In this document: positions 6,361-29,078 of the stretch, one piece after another
Layout: each line of letters opens with the position of its first letter
Position numbering within the stretch: position 1 is the stretch's first letter
Assembly (NCBI GenBank): GCA_027577595.1
Contig: JANBRJ010000140.1
Location: 1-29,078, forward strand
Direction: 5' to 3'
Source of the DNA: Coemansia sp. RSA 487
Taxonomy: Eukaryota > Kickxellomycota > Kickxellomycetes > Kickxellales > Kickxellaceae
DNA length: 29,078 bases
Notes under the pieces: model-generated
The model's input: the letters and a program-made list of their open reading frames with translations, nothing else
Told to the model about the DNA's origin: nothing
Database searches by the model: none
Position numbers and translations under genes: made by a program

Positions 6361-6915
6361 ATGAAGCTTGCTGCTGCCCTTCTTGCCCTTGCTGCTGTCG
6401 CCGTCGCCCAAGACTCATCCTCCTCGCTCAGCGCGCTTGAACAGTGCTATAAGCAAAAGTGTCCTAATGGAGTAACCAATGCTTGCCAGGCGGCCTGTCT
6501 TAACAACCCGAACCCAAATGCCTCGATGATCGCAGAGACCAACAAGTGTTACGAAGGCTGCAACGGCCTTGACTACCAGGGAGCCATCGATTGCCAGGCA
6601 AAGTGCAATGAGCTCTACAACCCGTCCGGCGTTGTTGTCACTGACCACCTCACCCCTGCTGGCGTCAGCGAGGACGGTAGCACCAGCACCAGCGCTAGCT
6701 CGGGTGCCTCCACAGCTGCAGAATCGCAGGACGCAAAATCGCAGGACGCAGAGTCCAACTCCGACGATGAAAAGTCCAGTGGTAAGGAATCCGGCTCTGA
6801 CGCAGAGAAATCGGGCGACGAGAAGAACTCTGACACCGAATCTTCTGGTGCATCAAGTGTCAAGGTTGTTCTTTCTGCCGTCGCCGCCGTCGCCGCTGCC
6901 GCCGCGCTGTTCTAA
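6361..6915 (+). CDS. Secreted cysteine-rich GPI-anchored surface protein
   Basis: A 184-residue protein with a clear signal peptide (residues 1-16, cleavage after AVAQ likely). The mature N-terminal half holds eight cysteines arranged as one C-x4-C and three C-x3-C pairs (CYKQKC, CQAAC, CYEGC, CQAKC), suggesting a small disulfide-bonded helical domain. It is followed by about 70 residues rich in Ser, Thr, Asp, Glu and Lys, expected to be O-mannosylated and extended. The C-terminus is a hydrophobic tail (VKVVLSAVAAVAAAAALF) preceded by small residues (SSGASS), the pattern of a GPI-attachment signal. It therefore probably sits in the plasma membrane or cell wall. Family not recognised by name. 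A strong TATA box, CT-rich leader and biased codons suggest high expression. Confidence 0.75.
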   Translation: MKLAAALLALAAVAVAQDSSSSLSALEQCYKQKCPNGVTNACQAACLNNPNPNASMIAETNKCYEGCNGLDYQGAIDCQAKCNELYNPSGVVVTDHLTPAGVSEDGSTSTSASSGASTAAESQDAKSQDAESNSDDEKSSGKESGSDAEKSGDEKNSDTESSGASSVKVVLSAVAAVAAAAALF

Positions 6916-14828: not shown

Positions 14829-16061
14829 CTACACATCTGGCAATTTCATAAAGTCCAAGGTACACGACCATCTTTTGTTTTTGGTCTCTATGGATTCCTC
14901 TTCTGGGCACCAGCACTTTTTGTTGGCGTCGCCCTTGGGGCAGTTCCACAGCGGACTGTGGAAGTACCCAATGTCGTCAAACCAATGGACCTGGTTCTTC
15001 TGCAAGAACATTGCAACGGCCAGCGAATGGACAGGTGCATCGCCCCAGCGCTCGTAGAAGAACCCGCCAGCGTGGTCCAGATGGTCGAAATACGCAGAGT
15101 ATTGTTCAGAACGCAGGAAATCCAGGTCGCCGATCTCAAAGTTGGACCAGAAGTGGCACATGTTGTAACCGCCCTTGCTGTTTGTCACAAAGTTCATCAG
15201 GTTTTTTTCTGGGATCAAGTCTTTGTTCTTGGCCATAAAATCGGTGGTTACATCCCAGAGAGTCGGAATGGTCTTTGGATATTCCTTTAGCGAAATGGTA
15301 AAGCCGTACGTCTTGTTGTTTGTCTGCATAAGCATGAACGGGTCGTAGTCAATGTCGCATCCAAACTTGACACCAGGCTCCACGCGCCAGTACCATTTGA
15401 ACTGATCCATGAGTGGGTGGCGGTAGAAGAACCCTGACTCGTAGCGACACATATGGCGGTAGCTCTCACTACCGCCATATATAATCTTTTGCTCATTCAT
15501 CTCCTTGCGTGCCTCAGCAGCGCGTATTTGGTCGATATAGTCGGGATACGACCAGTGCTCGGTAGGGATGAGCCCAAAGTGGCACTCGCCGCTTACAACG
15601 CTCTTGATCCGCTCTTTAAAGTCGTTGCTAAAGGGCTCGTTGTTCAAAAAGACATATGGGTAGTTGTAGCGGCGGTTAAAGCGGTCCTCCAGCTGTATCA
15701 GCGATTCACAAAGGCTATTGAGCTCCTTGTTGCGAGTCAGGATAACAAAGGCTGCATTCGCTTTTTCACTTGGCAACACAGGCTCGCCAGCAAGCGATGT
15801 TTCCCTAACGTATTCGGTGACAGTCTCAGTATAGTTGCCTGAGCGGGTGACGGTCACAGTGACTGGTGGAGGATGGCTTATTCCAGCGCCCCTCCCGGTG
15901 TCGTTGTTGTCATTTAGAGGGGGTGGTGCATTTGCGTCATCTGGTGTGTCGGCAGGACGATGATTTAGCTGTGAATCGAGATAGGGCGAGAGCAGGAGAA
16001 AGTGTACGAGCAGCACAACGCTAACAACTATGGCCACCAGCCTCCATTTAATGTTTAGCAT
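14829..16061 (-). CDS. Kre2/Mnt1-family alpha-1,2-mannosyltransferase, copy A
   Basis: A 410-residue type II Golgi glycosyltransferase of family GT15. It transfers mannose from GDP-mannose to O-linked and N-linked glycans of secretory proteins. I start at the ATG at 16061: a short cytosolic tail, a signal anchor (about residues 6-26, LVAIVVSVVLLVHFLLL), a Pro/Thr-rich stem (30-98) and the catalytic domain (99-410). Catalytic landmarks are YNYPYVFLNNEPF, EHWSYPDY, CRYESGFFYRHPL, YWRVEP (Glu228, equivalent to the Mn-binding Glu of Kre2) and FWSNFEI (Glu309, the proposed nucleophile position), then FYERWGDAPVHS and HWFDDIGYFHSP. No introns. It lies 238 bp downstream of the kinase gene on the same strand. 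Copy B at 23576-24754 is about 85% identical in the catalytic domain by eye but has an unrelated anchor and stem. Confidence 0.93.
   Translation of the reverse strand: MLNIKWRLVAIVVSVVLLVHFLLLSPYLDSQLNHRPADTPDDANAPPPLNDNNDTGRGAGISHPPPVTVTVTRSGNYTETVTEYVRETSLAGEPVLPSEKANAAFVILTRNKELNSLCESLIQLEDRFNRRYNYPYVFLNNEPFSNDFKERIKSVVSGECHFGLIPTEHWSYPDYIDQIRAAEARKEMNEQKIIYGGSESYRHMCRYESGFFYRHPLMDQFKWYWRVEPGVKFGCDIDYDPFMLMQTNNKTYGFTISLKEYPKTIPTLWDVTTDFMAKNKDLIPEKNLMNFVTNSKGGYNMCHFWSNFEIGDLDFLRSEQYSAYFDHLDHAGGFFYERWGDAPVHSLAVAMFLQKNQVHWFDDIGYFHSPLWNCPKGDANKKCWCPEEESIETKNKRWSCTLDFMKLPDV
14906..14990 (-). repeat. 85-bp tract identical (inverted) to copy B
   Basis: Within the C-terminal part of mannosyltransferase copy A, 85 consecutive bases are identical on the opposite strand to 24587-24671 in copy B. 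All synonymous positions agree, which suggests recent duplication or gene conversion. Confidence 0.9.
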
Positions 16062-16299
16062 CGTGCACGGATGAGAACGGATAAGGCAGAGAAAAGGGCG
16101 AATTAAGCAGCGAAGAAGAAAGGGGAGAAGGGGAGAAAAAGAAAGGCAGAGTTTGGCTCCAGAAAGCAACAGAGCAGAATTTTTATTTTGGGCTGTGGCG
16201 GATCGTTTGCGAAAGAGTTACACAGCGCAAATTTGACTGTGTAACACAACTGTGTATTAAAATGGTGTAAAAATAGAGAAAACAGTGAAAAAAGATCGG

Positions 16300-23575: not shown

Positions 23576-24754
23576 ATGGCGGCAGTACGTGATTTGCGTG
23601 GCATACTCTTTTTTCTTGTGGTCATTGTCGGCATGGCAGTTGTATGGAGAGACCTTCGCTATGACTTTAGCTTTTCCAGCGACATGCGCCAGGCAGAGCT
23701 GGCTCGGCGGAAAGAGGTCGTCACAAGCACAATGACTTCGGTTGCTGTACAAACCCAGACTGAGGTTGTGACCGAGATTATTCAGATCCAGCAGGAGCAG
23801 GCGACGTCGGAAAGAGCAAGTGCAGCCTTTGTTATCTTGACCCGCAATAAGGACCTAAAGGGGCTGCGTGAGACTCTGGCACAGCTGGAGGATCGCTTTA
23901 ACCGCCGCTATAACTACCCATATGTCTTTTTGAACAACGAGCCCTTTAGCGACGACTTTAAGGAGCGGATCAAGAGCGTTGTGAGCGGCGAATGCCACTT
24001 TGGGGTTATTCCTACTGAGCACTGGTCGTATCCCGACTATATCAACCAAACGCGAGCAGCCGAGGCGCGCAAAGACATGAATGAGCGCAAGGTCATCTAT
24101 GGCGGCAGGGAGAGCTACCACCACATGTGCCGCTACGAGTCAGGGTTCTTCTACCGCCACCCGCTCATGGATCAGTTCAAATGGTACTGGCGTGTGGAGC
24201 CCGACGTAAAGTTTGGATGCGACATTGACTACGATCCGTTCATGTTTATGCAAACAAACAACAAAAAGTACGGCTTTACAATCTCAATCAAAGAGGTTCC
24301 CGAGACCATCCCTACGCTGTGGAACACAACCATGAACTTTATGAAAGAGCACAAGCACCTGATACCAGAGAAGAATCTAATGAACTTTGTGACTGACAGC
24401 AATGGTGGTTACAACCGCTGCCACTTCTGGTCCAACTTTGAAATTGCCAGTCTTGATTTCATGCGCTCCGAGCAGTACTCTGCGTACTTTGATTACTTGG
24501 ACCGTGCTGGCGGGTTCTTCTACGAGCGCTGGGGCGATGCGCCAGTTCATTCACTGGGTGTGACAATGTTCCTGAACAAGGACGAAGTCCATTGGTTTGA
24601 CGACATTGGGTACTTCCACAGTCCGCTGTGGAACTGCCCCAAGGGCGACGCCAACAAAAAGTGCTGGTGCCTCGAGGAGGACTCTATTGAAACGAGGAAC
24701 AAGAGATGGTCGTGTACATTGGACTTTGTTGCTCTGCCTGGACCGAATGCATGA
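23576..24754 (+). CDS. Kre2/Mnt1-family alpha-1,2-mannosyltransferase, copy B
   Basis: A 392-residue GT15 enzyme, paralogous to copy A and on the opposite strand. A short N-terminal tail and signal anchor (about residues 9-24, GILFFLVVIVGMAVVW) are followed by a Thr/Val/Gln-rich stem (45-80) and the catalytic domain (83-392). YNYPYVFLNNEPF, EHWSYPDY, YWRVEP (Glu208) and FWSNFEI (Glu289) are all kept, so the enzyme should be active. It would add alpha-1,2-mannose to glycoproteins in the Golgi lumen. Compared with copy A the stem is shorter and different in sequence, while the catalytic domain is about 85% identical, with blocks identical even at silent sites. Single exon. The ATG follows a pyrimidine-rich leader. 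Confidence 0.93.
   Translation: MAAVRDLRGILFFLVVIVGMAVVWRDLRYDFSFSSDMRQAELARRKEVVTSTMTSVAVQTQTEVVTEIIQIQQEQATSERASAAFVILTRNKDLKGLRETLAQLEDRFNRRYNYPYVFLNNEPFSDDFKERIKSVVSGECHFGVIPTEHWSYPDYINQTRAAEARKDMNERKVIYGGRESYHHMCRYESGFFYRHPLMDQFKWYWRVEPDVKFGCDIDYDPFMFMQTNNKKYGFTISIKEVPETIPTLWNTTMNFMKEHKHLIPEKNLMNFVTDSNGGYNRCHFWSNFEIASLDFMRSEQYSAYFDYLDRAGGFFYERWGDAPVHSLGVTMFLNKDEVHWFDDIGYFHSPLWNCPKGDANKKCWCLEEDSIETRNKRWSCTLDFVALPGPNA
24587..24671 (+). repeat. 85-bp tract identical (inverted) to copy A
   Basis: Partner of 14906-14990. The two tracts form an inverted repeat 9.6 kb apart with the kinase gene between them. Confidence 0.9.
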
Positions 24755-25719
24755 GCGAACCAAATAAGCTTTCCTTTAGTTTTTTCATTTTCAAAACAAC
24801 ACAAGACTGACACTTTGACGACTGCTGATTTGATCTTACTGTGACAAATTGTGCTAATATCCACATTTGACTTTATACATTTCAATGGCACTGACGTTGC
24901 TCAGTAGAGCTGTGTAGAGATGGTAGAGATGGTAGAGAGATCGATCGTCAGAAAAGCCAACCTTTATCGATGACAAAAAACGGAAACAACAGGCTCGGAC
25001 TTTTGTTGCCAGTGGGGAATTTGCAGCCAATGGCAGCTGCAGATAGGAGAATTGGCCACCAACACACATGTGCGTCAGATTCGATGATACCAAAAGAACT
25101 TTGAGAAAAGCTAGCATTGGAAGGGAGGTATTCAAAGTGGGAGGAAGTGCGTTTCAGATGAATGTGCATGTGGCCATTCGATTTGAGTTTCTCTGTCATG
25201 GGGCAAAAAGGACAATGGATCCAGACGGTGGCTGTCACAAAGGCCAGAGCACTTGCGCTCTGTCAGAAAGCTGCTTCAGGAAGCTTGCACCGAGAACAAT
25301 GGCCAGCAGTAGCAATGGAAGAAGCACTGGAAGAAGCAATGGAAGAGGCACTGGAATCAGTATCGCCATGAAAGAAAAGGATGACGTGAGTGGTATAGCT
25401 TGAATACACGTCCTCAGATAGACATCAAACAATTGAAATACTGTATTTTGCAAAACTAGTTGCATCGAATAAGAAGGATGTATACGCGTCGAATGGTGAA
25501 AGGTTTGCGGTGGCAATAATGCATTTTGCGTTCCAAGAAAAAGTCATTTGCGTCGGTTGGTGTTATATTTGCGCTTGGAAGCAAGAGGCACAAACTGAGC
25601 TTTGCGGAGAAAGCTATTCATTACACGCCTATTATTTCACATTAAGATGGATTGGTTTTCTCAGCCTCTGTATATGTTTTCAATGCGATTAGTTAACATT
25701 GGTCTTAATAAAACCTAGC
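24755..25719. other. Intergenic region, no gene recognised
   Basis: Nearly 1 kb without a recognisable gene. It contains a 12-bp repeat (25311-25357) that gives open frames on both strands. A minus-strand frame (25238-24948) has a CPFC and a HMHIH that superficially recall a zinc finger, but the spacing does not fit C2H2 and the gene model is unsupported. Confidence 0.4.
25311..25357. repeat. 12-bp minisatellite, about four copies
   Basis: The unit AAGCA(A/C)TGGAAG is repeated about four times with one or two changes per copy. Because 12 is a multiple of three, it produces open but meaningless frames. Confidence 0.8.
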
Positions 25720-26760
25720 AATCTGAAGAAATACCACTATTGCTTTGAATAAAAACCCAACTGCAGTGCTGGCAGATATCAAGAAACATCTATGTGCAGC
25801 ATTCAGCGGCCTGACCATATCAGTGTCAGCACTACACAGACATTCGGTTGGCAAGTGCTGCTTAACACTAAATAAGCTAGAAAAACTCCCTGCAGAATAA
25901 AACTCTGACAGAGTAATTGCATTGAGAAAAGAAAGGGTTGAGCAGTGGGAGCAGATGGCCGATCTTGACTTTGCCATAAACTGCGTTTTCATTGACAAGG
26001 CTCTGGGTTCAAATTGCATATCCAAAGCAACTTTGGTCGCTCATTGATAGGGAAACCAACAAAGGGAACTGCCCATGGCAACAGGCATTTCAATAACCAT
26101 CCTGGGTGTCACTCTAATGTGTGTCGTATGCAAGGCTGATCCATTGTCACAGGCTTGCACAGTCACTAAATGTTAACACTGCAATAATGCACTAAACGTA
26201 ACAGCTCTCTGTTACATATAAAGGCAGCATTGCCTGTGGGTCATTGTCTTCTGGAAGAAGGCATGGGTTTTTTCTTTTATCTGGTTTGGAGAGGATAAGG
26301 GATCTGTGGATTACTCTGTGTTATTTTATCCTGGGTCCGTGGTGAGTCCGGCACACTGGGTGCAATGTCTAGCGCAGGTGTGGTTGATGTTTCATTGAGA
26401 AAACCTCAAGCTGTTTCTGCTACCAAAAAGATAAAGGCCAATGGCGACGAGATCAGGGTCAGTGGGCGTGTTGGCACACGAAGGGCACTTTCTGGCCCAC
26501 ATCTCAAATGTAATCGATGTACTGGATGCAAAGAGCATGAAAGGCCACTATCTTGTGATTGACAATGCTCCAATTCACACGCCATTAGCCATTCGAAACC
26601 TAATAGAATACAGACGATACAAGTGCCTATATCTGCCTCCATACTCACCCTTTCTAAATCCCATTGAGGAGCTTTGGTCCAAAGTAAAATCGGGTGTTCG
26701 TAGAACAGTGCTTAGAACAGACAACAGACAACAGACTCTGTGACACGAAATCTAATTACC
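25720..26760 (+). pseudogene. Decayed Tc1/mariner (DD34E) transposase gene
   Basis: A transposase of the IS630-Tc1-mariner superfamily can be followed through several frames. The N-terminal DNA-binding part is at 25742-25900 (FSGLTISVSALHRH, LTLNKLEKLP). The first catalytic Asp is at 25994-25996 (CVFIDK). Next come FKLHIQSNFGRS (about 26005-26040) and GISITILG (26084-26107). After an insertion the protein resumes with AMSSAGVVDVSLRKP (26362-26406). The second Asp is in DNAPIHT (26561) and the Glu in NPIEELW (26666), giving DD34E spacing. I count one in-frame stop (25898), four frame changes (near 26003, 26065, 26480 and 26725) and one 247-bp insertion, so it cannot encode an active enzyme. 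The extreme N- and C-termini have faded, and I could not identify the element's own terminal repeats. It lies 670 bp upstream of the Fanzor frame. Confidence 0.85.
26109..26355. mobile_element. 247-bp insertion inside transposase, 7-bp duplication
   Basis: CTGGGTG occurs at 26102-26108 and again at 26356-26362, exactly flanking this block. Removing one copy and the block joins ITILG to AMSSAGVV in the same frame, as expected for this transposase family. The block has no open frame of note and no obvious terminal inverted repeats; it does contain a TATA-like ATATAAA (26217-26223). A small non-autonomous element is the best guess; class unknown. Confidence 0.7.
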
Positions 26761-26903
26761 GGATGTATGTTTACCACTATTTAACAGCATGCCATGTCAT
26801 CGCAGGTAAACATATCTTTTCTTCTCTTGGTCTCTTCTTAAGTTTTTATAATATACTTTTATTCATACAAAAGACAGTGACGGGATATTTCATAATAATA
26901 GAG

Positions 26904-27146
26904 TAGACGGAACTAAAGTTCCTCTTCGATTTTATTCCAACAAAAGATTGGCTTTTATAGCCGTCAAAGCATTCTGATAATGATGGTGGCTCGCAATATG
27001 ATTGTTCTGACAAGAGACAATCACATTGTCAGAAAGCATACAATATATGCTTCCCAATTATCTATCCCAATTATTGTAGTGCTTGTACGGCTATAAAAGC
27101 CAGGCTGTTTATGAAAAATAGAGACGAGGAACTTTAGTTTAGTCTG
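26904..27146. mobile_element. Foldback / MITE-like element
   Basis: Almost the whole 243 bp is an imperfect palindrome. The left arm begins TAGACGGAACTAAAGTTCCTC and the right arm, read on the other strand, begins CAGACTAAACTAAAGTTCCTC. Further in, TGGCTTTTATAGCCGT (16 bp, about 26949-26964) pairs perfectly with its partner at about 27085-27100, and the centre closes with TTCTGACAA / TTGTCAGAA around a 12-base loop (about 27004-27033). The flanks are TA on the left and TG on the right, compatible with a decayed TA target site as used by Tc1/mariner elements. There is no coding capacity. The boundaries may extend about 10 bp further on each side, where weak similarity continues. Confidence 0.8.
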
Positions 27147-27272
27147 CTCTCTTGATATTTTTGTGAAAAGTGATACATCAGTATCACAAGTGTTCCCAAG
27201 CAAGCTAAAGAACGAAAAGAGAATGTGTGCCCGATTAAGAAAGGCAGCGTGATATTGATGACTCAACGTTAA

Positions 27273-27431: not shown

Positions 27432-29078
27432 ATGGACAACGAGGATATATTGGACACAGGAACACGCGTTATAAAGTGTCCCCTAAAATCTCTGGTGAAT
27501 AACAGAAATGATATTACCAAGGTAAACGACTATGTCGTAGTGGCCAACACAGCTTCTACACACATGTATGGGCTGGCTCGTTGGATATTTGTCCATGAAC
27601 TGGCTACTCACAAGCAGTTCGACCCCTCTGTGTACCTGGAAAAGAGGTTTTTTGGTGAGGTATTCCTGCACCTCACCAAGCAGAAATCTAGGCCGAATGT
27701 CAAGGCTGAAGTCCAGGAGTACAGGAGGATCATACGCAAGCATCTGGATGCGTACAAGGAGGCTGCTGGCATCACAGAGTTTGATATAGCCAACCCATGC
27801 CAGACAGCAAATTTTGAGGCAGCAAGAATTTACACTGCGTACGTAAATAATATACAGACCAAGTCTGGTCAGTACCTTCGGCGTGCAGTAAATGTTCTGC
27901 TGAAAACTCGGGAGCGCAAGAGGGCACTTGAGGAGGCAATGAAGGGCAGAACAACGGATGAGATAAAGGAGGCGTATGAAGGCCAGATTTGGAAACCTGG
28001 GCTAGAGTTGAAAGAGGCGATAAAGCACCGCAACACTGTTCTTCCAGTTATCACTGTGGGCGACAAGAACATCGGGGACATGCTTGAACCTGTGTTGACA
28101 GCATACGACAACGACTATGAGTTTGAAGAGGAAGGCCTTTATTACGATATTAAGGCTCATCCAAAAAAGTACTTCAAAGCATTCTATTGTTTGGCAGTGC
28201 TTCTTGAGACCAACGACTGCAGAGCTTTCCAATGTTTCTCGTTGCGGAAGTTGTTTGTGCCAATGCACATCGAAATTGACACCGCTGTATTGTGTCGAAG
28301 CATAATGGACTGGAAGTATAACGCGAAGTCTCCTATCGAAAACTATTGGTATAGGCTGTTCAATGAACAGTCAAGGGTGCTACGGACAAGAAACGGGTTC
28401 AGGTTCTACGGCACGATACAGACCGATGGTGTGTCGGTGTCTGTGATCAAAAAGACTGCAAAGGCCAAAACAAAAAGCGGCTGGAAAGCGAAGAAAAGGG
28501 ACACTGAAGCAAGTGCTGCCATCGAGGCCAGTGGAAGTGGGCTGACTGCCCCAGCCAAGACCGCGACTACTGACTTATTGCCAGAGGACCATCCCAAGAA
28601 GCCCAGGAAGCGAAAAAAGCTAGGGGGAAAGAAGTTGGGCGAGTTCACGTGTATCCACGAGCTTTCGCCAGAGCAGTTGGCCAACATGAAAGCCCCAATT
28701 TTCATGGATCCGGGTCGCCAGGACATTGTCTTTGGCATGACGGATGGGAGCACCTCTGAAGAGAAAGCTCTTTTCCGATACACACGGAGCCAGAAGGCTA
28801 AAGAAACCCGGACAACCCGCTACCGCAAGTTGAGGGAGAAGGTCAAGAAAGAGCATCCAGACAGCAGCGAAATCAAGGCTGCTGAAGCTAGTTTGGCTGC
28901 TTTTTCGTGCACATCGATATTGCCAGGTAAATATGAGCAATATATCAGGGCACGTGCTGCTGTTTGGCCAGTGCTGAGTAAATTCTACACGAACACCATG
29001 GCCACCAGCAAGAATGGGAACAACCCTCAGCCAATTCATCGCAAGCTTCGGCAATCCGCCCACATCAAGCAGCAACAA
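27432..29078 (+). CDS. Fanzor (eukaryotic TnpB-like RNA-guided nuclease), partial
   Basis: An uninterrupted frame of 549 codons from ATG 27432 that runs off the window. The architecture fits Fanzor: an N-terminal WED-like strand (RVIKCPLKSLV), long helical REC-like regions (about residues 25-300), then TDGVSVSV (331-338), the conserved strand before RuvC. A Lys-rich segment follows, with nuclear-localisation-like clusters (KKTAKAKTKSGWKAKK, and PKKPRKRKK at 388-396). RuvC-I is FMDPGRQDIVFGM, with Asp426 as the first catalytic residue. The typical Fanzor follow-up is RYTRSQKAKETRTTRY (449-464), and the bridge-like region ends in YEQYIRAR and IHRKLRQSAHIKQQ. Still missing at the edge are the RuvC-II Glu, the zinc-ribbon and the RuvC-III Asp. 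Fanzors are transposon-borne, use a guide RNA made from the element's 3' end and cleave DNA in the nucleus. The clean frame suggests a young or selected copy. A viral origin is possible for relatives, but the mariner neighbours favour a transposon. Confidence 0.85.
   Translation, partial: MDNEDILDTGTRVIKCPLKSLVNNRNDITKVNDYVVVANTASTHMYGLARWIFVHELATHKQFDPSVYLEKRFFGEVFLHLTKQKSRPNVKAEVQEYRRIIRKHLDAYKEAAGITEFDIANPCQTANFEAARIYTAYVNNIQTKSGQYLRRAVNVLLKTRERKRALEEAMKGRTTDEIKEAYEGQIWKPGLELKEAIKHRNTVLPVITVGDKNIGDMLEPVLTAYDNDYEFEEEGLYYDIKAHPKKYFKAFYCLAVLLETNDCRAFQCFSLRKLFVPMHIEIDTAVLCRSIMDWKYNAKSPIENYWYRLFNEQSRVLRTRNGFRFYGTIQTDGVSVSVIKKTAKAKTKSGWKAKKRDTEASAAIEASGSGLTAPAKTATTDLLPEDHPKKPRKRKKLGGKKLGEFTCIHELSPEQLANMKAPIFMDPGRQDIVFGMTDGSTSEEKALFRYTRSQKAKETRTTRYRKLREKVKKEHPDSSEIKAAEASLAAFSCTSILPGKYEQYIRARAAVWPVLSKFYTNTMATSKNGNNPQPIHRKLRQSAHIKQQQ

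Follow-up and report, generated by a model that had tools for sequence, protein, structure and literature searches.

A predicted Fanzor1 coding sequence entering the edge of a fungal-type DNA window

A long reading frame runs off the end of the 29,078-nucleotide stretch of DNA analysed here (the window). It raises the question whether it encodes a Fanzor, as an earlier note had proposed from its motifs, and whether such a gene would be a live mobile nuclease, a dead copy or a gene retained by its host.

Assignment of the open reading frame

The first feature to be considered is the frame itself:

27432 to 29078, + strand: predicted coding sequence of a Fanzor1, whose 549 codons begin at the first ATG and reach the window edge without a stop; phmmer matches to the Parasitella parasitica (PpFz1, 3.3e-63) and Spizellomyces punctatus (SpuFz1, 8.3e-19) proteins

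From the first in-frame ATG at 27432, the 549 codons run without a stop through the final base of the window, as the earlier note had stated. The other five frames of 27432-29078 contain 23, 30, 6, 15 and 26 stops, and in 2000 mononucleotide shuffles of this interval no open run exceeded 243 codons, the longest run averaging 72. The G+C content by codon position is 0.49, 0.39 and 0.57. Of the five further window genes for which this was measured, three also peak at the third position (the kinase and both Glyco_transf_15 genes); the coiled-coil and WH1 genes do not. About two-thirds of a Fanzor1 gene, counted from its 5' end, appear to lie in the window; the part past 29078, which lies outside it, would carry the RuvC-II Glu, the CxxC...CxxC zinc ribbon, the RuvC-III Asp or Asn and the ωRNA. 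The three Fz1 ωRNAs that are known measure about 70-150 nt (PMC11423790).

Judged from its sequence, the protein of 27432-29078 is very probably a Fanzor1, an estimate that covers family identity and is separate from the activity of the predicted nuclease. When the 549 in-window residues were compared with all PDB chain sequences by phmmer, the matches up to an E-value of 10 comprised three sequences, all Fanzor1: PpFz1 (matching query residues 32-352 and 419-527), SpuFz1 and the Guillardia theta protein (GtFz1, E-value 0.8), of which PpFz1 and SpuFz1 alone were significant. No TnpB or Cas12 chain was found among the PDB sequences up to the same value. A three-row profile made of the window protein, PpFz1 and SpuFz1, in which the last two match by construction, recovered GtFz1 with an E-value of 1.3e-15; it also returned two unrelated chains (0.8 and 1.2). 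The naming of the frame as a Fanzor is borne out by these matches. Over aligned residues, the window protein is identical to PpFz1 at 148 of 414 positions (36%) and to SpuFz1 at 97 of 399, and PpFz1 is identical to SpuFz1 at 104 of 389, so that the window protein and PpFz1 resemble each other more closely than either resembles SpuFz1. Residues identical to PpFz1 occur throughout the length of the protein, at 28% (14/50, 9/32) to 44% (22/50) per 50-residue bin, with the linker bin 351-400 left out because just three of its residues are aligned (one identical). The RuvC-I Asp, the TDG motif and the segments after them align across the Fanzor1 sequences.

Profile searches assigned the frame to no other family. 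Pfam-A gave no match to the whole frame up to an E-value of 1, and searches with its two parts returned a single match, to an unrelated DUF (2.8); this silence would be expected if the zinc-ribbon part modelled by Pfam falls past the window. The lack of a TnpB-family match in Pfam or NCBIfam is a weak test, as the zinc-ribbon region would lie outside the window. The sole NCBIfam match, to the lasso peptide isopeptidase profile NF033523, had an E-value of 0.012 and scored 14.4 bits where the model's cut-off is 400, and this family was rejected. In GTDB contigs, 13 pattern matches yielded no confirmed relative of PpFz1; three scans of IMG/VR gave 6, 113 and 4 pattern matches, none of them confirmed as a relative by tblastn, and phage records contained no matching relative. 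Single-sequence AlphaFold2 gave no usable fold (mean pLDDT 33.4).

Motifs, linker and the last residues in the window

Within the frame, four features can be placed with respect to the RuvC domain:

28422 to 28445, + strand: TDGVSVSV motif before the RuvC domain (residues 331-338); TDG is invariant in the three-sequence Fanzor1 alignment
28446 to 28703, + strand: Lys-rich linker of 86 residues from TDGVSVSV to MDPGRQD, with 20 K/R and 9 D/E
28596 to 28634, + strand: KKPRKRKKLGGKK, a putative nuclear-localisation-like run in the linker
28704 to 28724, + strand: RuvC-I motif MDPGRQD (residues 425-431), with Asp426 aligned to SpuFz1 D383

TDGVSVSV, MDPGRQD and RYTRSQKAKETRTTRY (residues 449-464) follow each other in the order that had been claimed for them. 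The structural report gives D383, E541 and D606 as the catalytic residues of SpuFz1 and describes the Fanzor1 architecture as bilobed, with REC and WED preceding RuvC (PMC11423790). The RuvC-I catalytic Asp is present in the window protein as Asp426, and from the published architecture we take residues 32-352 as REC and WED, with approximate domain borders. The distance from TDG to the RuvC-I Asp is 92 residues in the window protein, whereas PpFz1 has 51 and SpuFz1 has 52. Within this longer linker, KKPRKRKKLGGKK looks like a nuclear localisation signal.

Comparison with the individual family members shows where the likeness lies. PpFz1 (PDB 9cf0-9cf3), besides the identities given above, shares the MDPG of RuvC-I, with Gly following the catalytic Asp-Pro (MDPGRRD in PpFz1 versus MDPGRQD here), and a conserved segment ending in FKAFY. 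SpuFz1 (PDB 8gkh) shares the RuvC-I Asp and a RYT..Q.A.ET motif, but has DPN in place of DPG. GtFz1 (PDB 9cer) is recovered by the profile, whereas its single-sequence match marks it as distant. In the part of the literature available, 20 SpuFz1 residues are named as RNA, DNA or metal contacts (PMC10432273); in our contact map 16 of the 20 fall inside aligned segments and four outside. Eighteen SpuFz1 positions were checked and 16 counted, positions 152 and 159, taken from PMC11423790, being dropped because their letters did not match the paper. Six of the 16 are identical in the window protein (Q130, N133, Q148, R157, D383 and R420), nine differ, two of these by an Arg-to-Lys exchange, and one is aligned with a gap. 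On these contacts, the target-adjacent motif is not predictable from SpuFz1. Six of 16 is little higher than the 24% background.

The last residues in the window bear on the FRI, a cyclophilin-binding insertion of about 100 residues that follows the NETAKSI segment in PpFz1 and that is reported from Parasitella and Rhizopus alone (PMC11423790). The P614/P616 loop of PpFz1, which in our own reading of the numbering corresponds to chain positions 1023/1025, comes soon after the last aligned segment. In the window protein, about a dozen extra residues are followed by PIHRKLRQSAHIKQQQ, which is in register with PVFREFKFLVYNKTK of GtFz1 from the Pro of the GtFz1 HPV onwards, a weak likeness with 3 of 15 residues identical by eye. 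Queries joined from SpuFz1, GtFz1 and PpFz1 extended the alignment into the tail by at most one or two residues, with 16 tail residues available. Since a GtFz1-like stretch occurs about a dozen residues on, where PpFz1 has its insertion, the FRI is probably, on this weak indication, missing after the NETAKSI segment of the window protein.

Transposase fragment, fold-back and neighbouring genes

Two features precede the frame:

26435 to 26743, + strand: truncated C-terminal half of a Tc1-type DDE transposase (Pfam DDE_3, 3.4e-17; Sleeping Beauty SB100X, 2.4e-5)
26888 to 27168, no strand: fold-back, a near-complete inverted repeat with arms 26888-27013 and 27026-27168

The decayed transposase that the earlier note had placed just upstream was recognised over positions 62-135 of the 146 in the DDE_3 profile, with 34 residues between its Asp and Glu. 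Its N-terminal half was not recovered: Pfam matched none of nine further stop-free pieces on the + strand within 24895-26903, in a partial search that scanned 10 of the 29 stop-free pieces of both strands. Just before the DDE_3 piece, a stop-free piece in another frame (26299-26562, + strand), likewise with no Pfam match, reads AGVVDVSLRKPQ...GRVGT; it may represent a more N-terminal portion of this transposase, separated from the DDE_3 piece by a frameshift.

The fold-back is 281 nt long with a 12-nt loop, and 99 of 122 aligned arm positions are identical. RNA folding of 26875-27175 gave -107.2 kcal/mol, compared with a mean of -62.6 in 100 shuffles (z -9.6). Situated downstream of the transposase fragment and upstream of the Fanzor frame, it is probably a fold-back or MITE-like element. 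No second copy was found in the window, where all blastn matches were under 30 nt. A 7-bp direct repeat, GATATTT, occurs at 26884 and 27154, near the fold-back ends; as it is not flush with the arms, we refrain from reading it as a target-site duplication. No transposon ends around the Fanzor frame were recognised within the window, its 3' side lying beyond. According to the Fanzor survey, some family members of Rhizopus, Phycomyces and Mucor are carried by MuDr-type elements in which a MuDR transposase is not encoded (PMC3627910). Across the window, Rfam gave no match at the gathering threshold, the tRNA scan was empty, and so was the promoter and terminator scan, whose models were built for bacterial signals.

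The neighbouring genes encode two Glyco_transf_15 mannosyltransferases, a Pkinase-KA1 kinase, a WH1-WH2 protein, an RTA1-like protein and RMI1. Glyco_transf_15 is a mainly fungal family, and the gene set suggests a fungus. The two Glyco_transf_15 genes (14829-16169, - strand, and 23576-24754, + strand) form an inverted duplication that flanks the long Pkinase-KA1 gene, with arms of 918 nt (14850-15767 and 23810-24727) that are 84% complementary. At 6361-6915 (+ strand) lies a gene for a small protein whose start, judged by eye, resembles a signal peptide. The protein has repeated Cys residues and a tail rich in Ser, Glu and Asp, and matched no Pfam family above cut-off.

Persistence of the gene and its place in the family

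How long the frame could have stayed open by chance was simulated with substitutions alone, excluding indels, in 2000 runs per rate. Under neutral substitution, the frame was kept open in 54.7% of runs at 0.01 substitutions per site, 29.6% at 0.02, 4.3% at 0.05 and 0.3% at 0.1, which indicates that the gene has not drifted for long. Past purifying selection is supported by the open frame combined with the homology to PpFz1 that the protein has kept. This evidence does not tell apart a mobile copy that is still live, a recent insertion and a domesticated gene. The earlier note had set the open frame against the decayed transposase and took the contrast to suggest that the nuclease had recently been active or was alone under selection. 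This reading goes too far: the open frame fits selection or youth, and activity is not readable from a partial gene. The contrast itself carries little weight, because part of the gene is unseen and a common element with the transposase fragment is unproven.

Two alternatives are compatible with Fanzor1 identity. The gene may already be dead, either broken or truncated past the window edge or with selection only just ceased. The remainder of the gene lies outside the window, a truncated transposase fragment is nearby, and nearly three in ten simulated frames survived at 0.02 neutral substitutions per site; against this, all 549 codons are open, and few simulated frames remained so at 0.05 and fewer at 0.1, so that we regard a dead copy as unlikely. 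The gene may instead have been domesticated by the host as a single-copy gene retained after decay of the transposon. The uninterrupted frame beside a transposase fragment and the lack of recognised transposon ends would fit, but the origin of that fragment in the same element is unproven, and we consider domestication highly improbable. Equally doubtful is the fuller version, in which a stand-alone, host-retained RNA-guided nuclease would have lost its transposase and gained an extended Lys-rich linker for nuclear targeting. A prokaryotic TnpB, contamination or an unrelated family such as the lasso peptide isopeptidases, to which the NF033523 match might point, is in practice refuted by the score far under the cut-off, the strength of the PpFz1 match with no TnpB chain beside it, the eukaryotic neighbour genes and the lack of a confirmed GTDB relative.

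We prefer the reading in which the frame belongs to a Fanzor1 gene that a DNA transposon most likely carried into a fungal-type genome. By analogy with other members of the family, the recognition lobe (REC and WED) would be formed by the first part of the frame, and the complete protein would bind an omega-RNA whose coding region would lie at the stop codon or directly beyond it. The 3' guide of this RNA, together with a short target-adjacent motif, would direct the opening of dsDNA and its cutting by the three-acid RuvC site. Cutting by bacterial TnpB is the source of the idea that such cleavage would help the element to persist at, or return to, donor sites.

Five of the species in Table 1 of the Fanzor survey are early-diverging fungi. 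The earlier note had called such nucleases rare and poorly sampled in these fungi, a claim contradicted by two sources: one describes Fanzor1 as very widespread among fungi (PMC10432273), and the other lists three to ten families in each of these five non-Dikarya species (PMC3627910). A literature search found no paper joining 'fanzor' and 'Zoopagomycota'. Fanzor1 is well documented in such fungi, and the window protein looks like an ordinary member of the family. It adds one further divergent, so far uninterrupted Fanzor1, which by itself leaves knowledge of Fanzors unchanged. The Fanzor family is mined for compact genome editors, and the 3' end and ωRNA of this copy would raise its usefulness.
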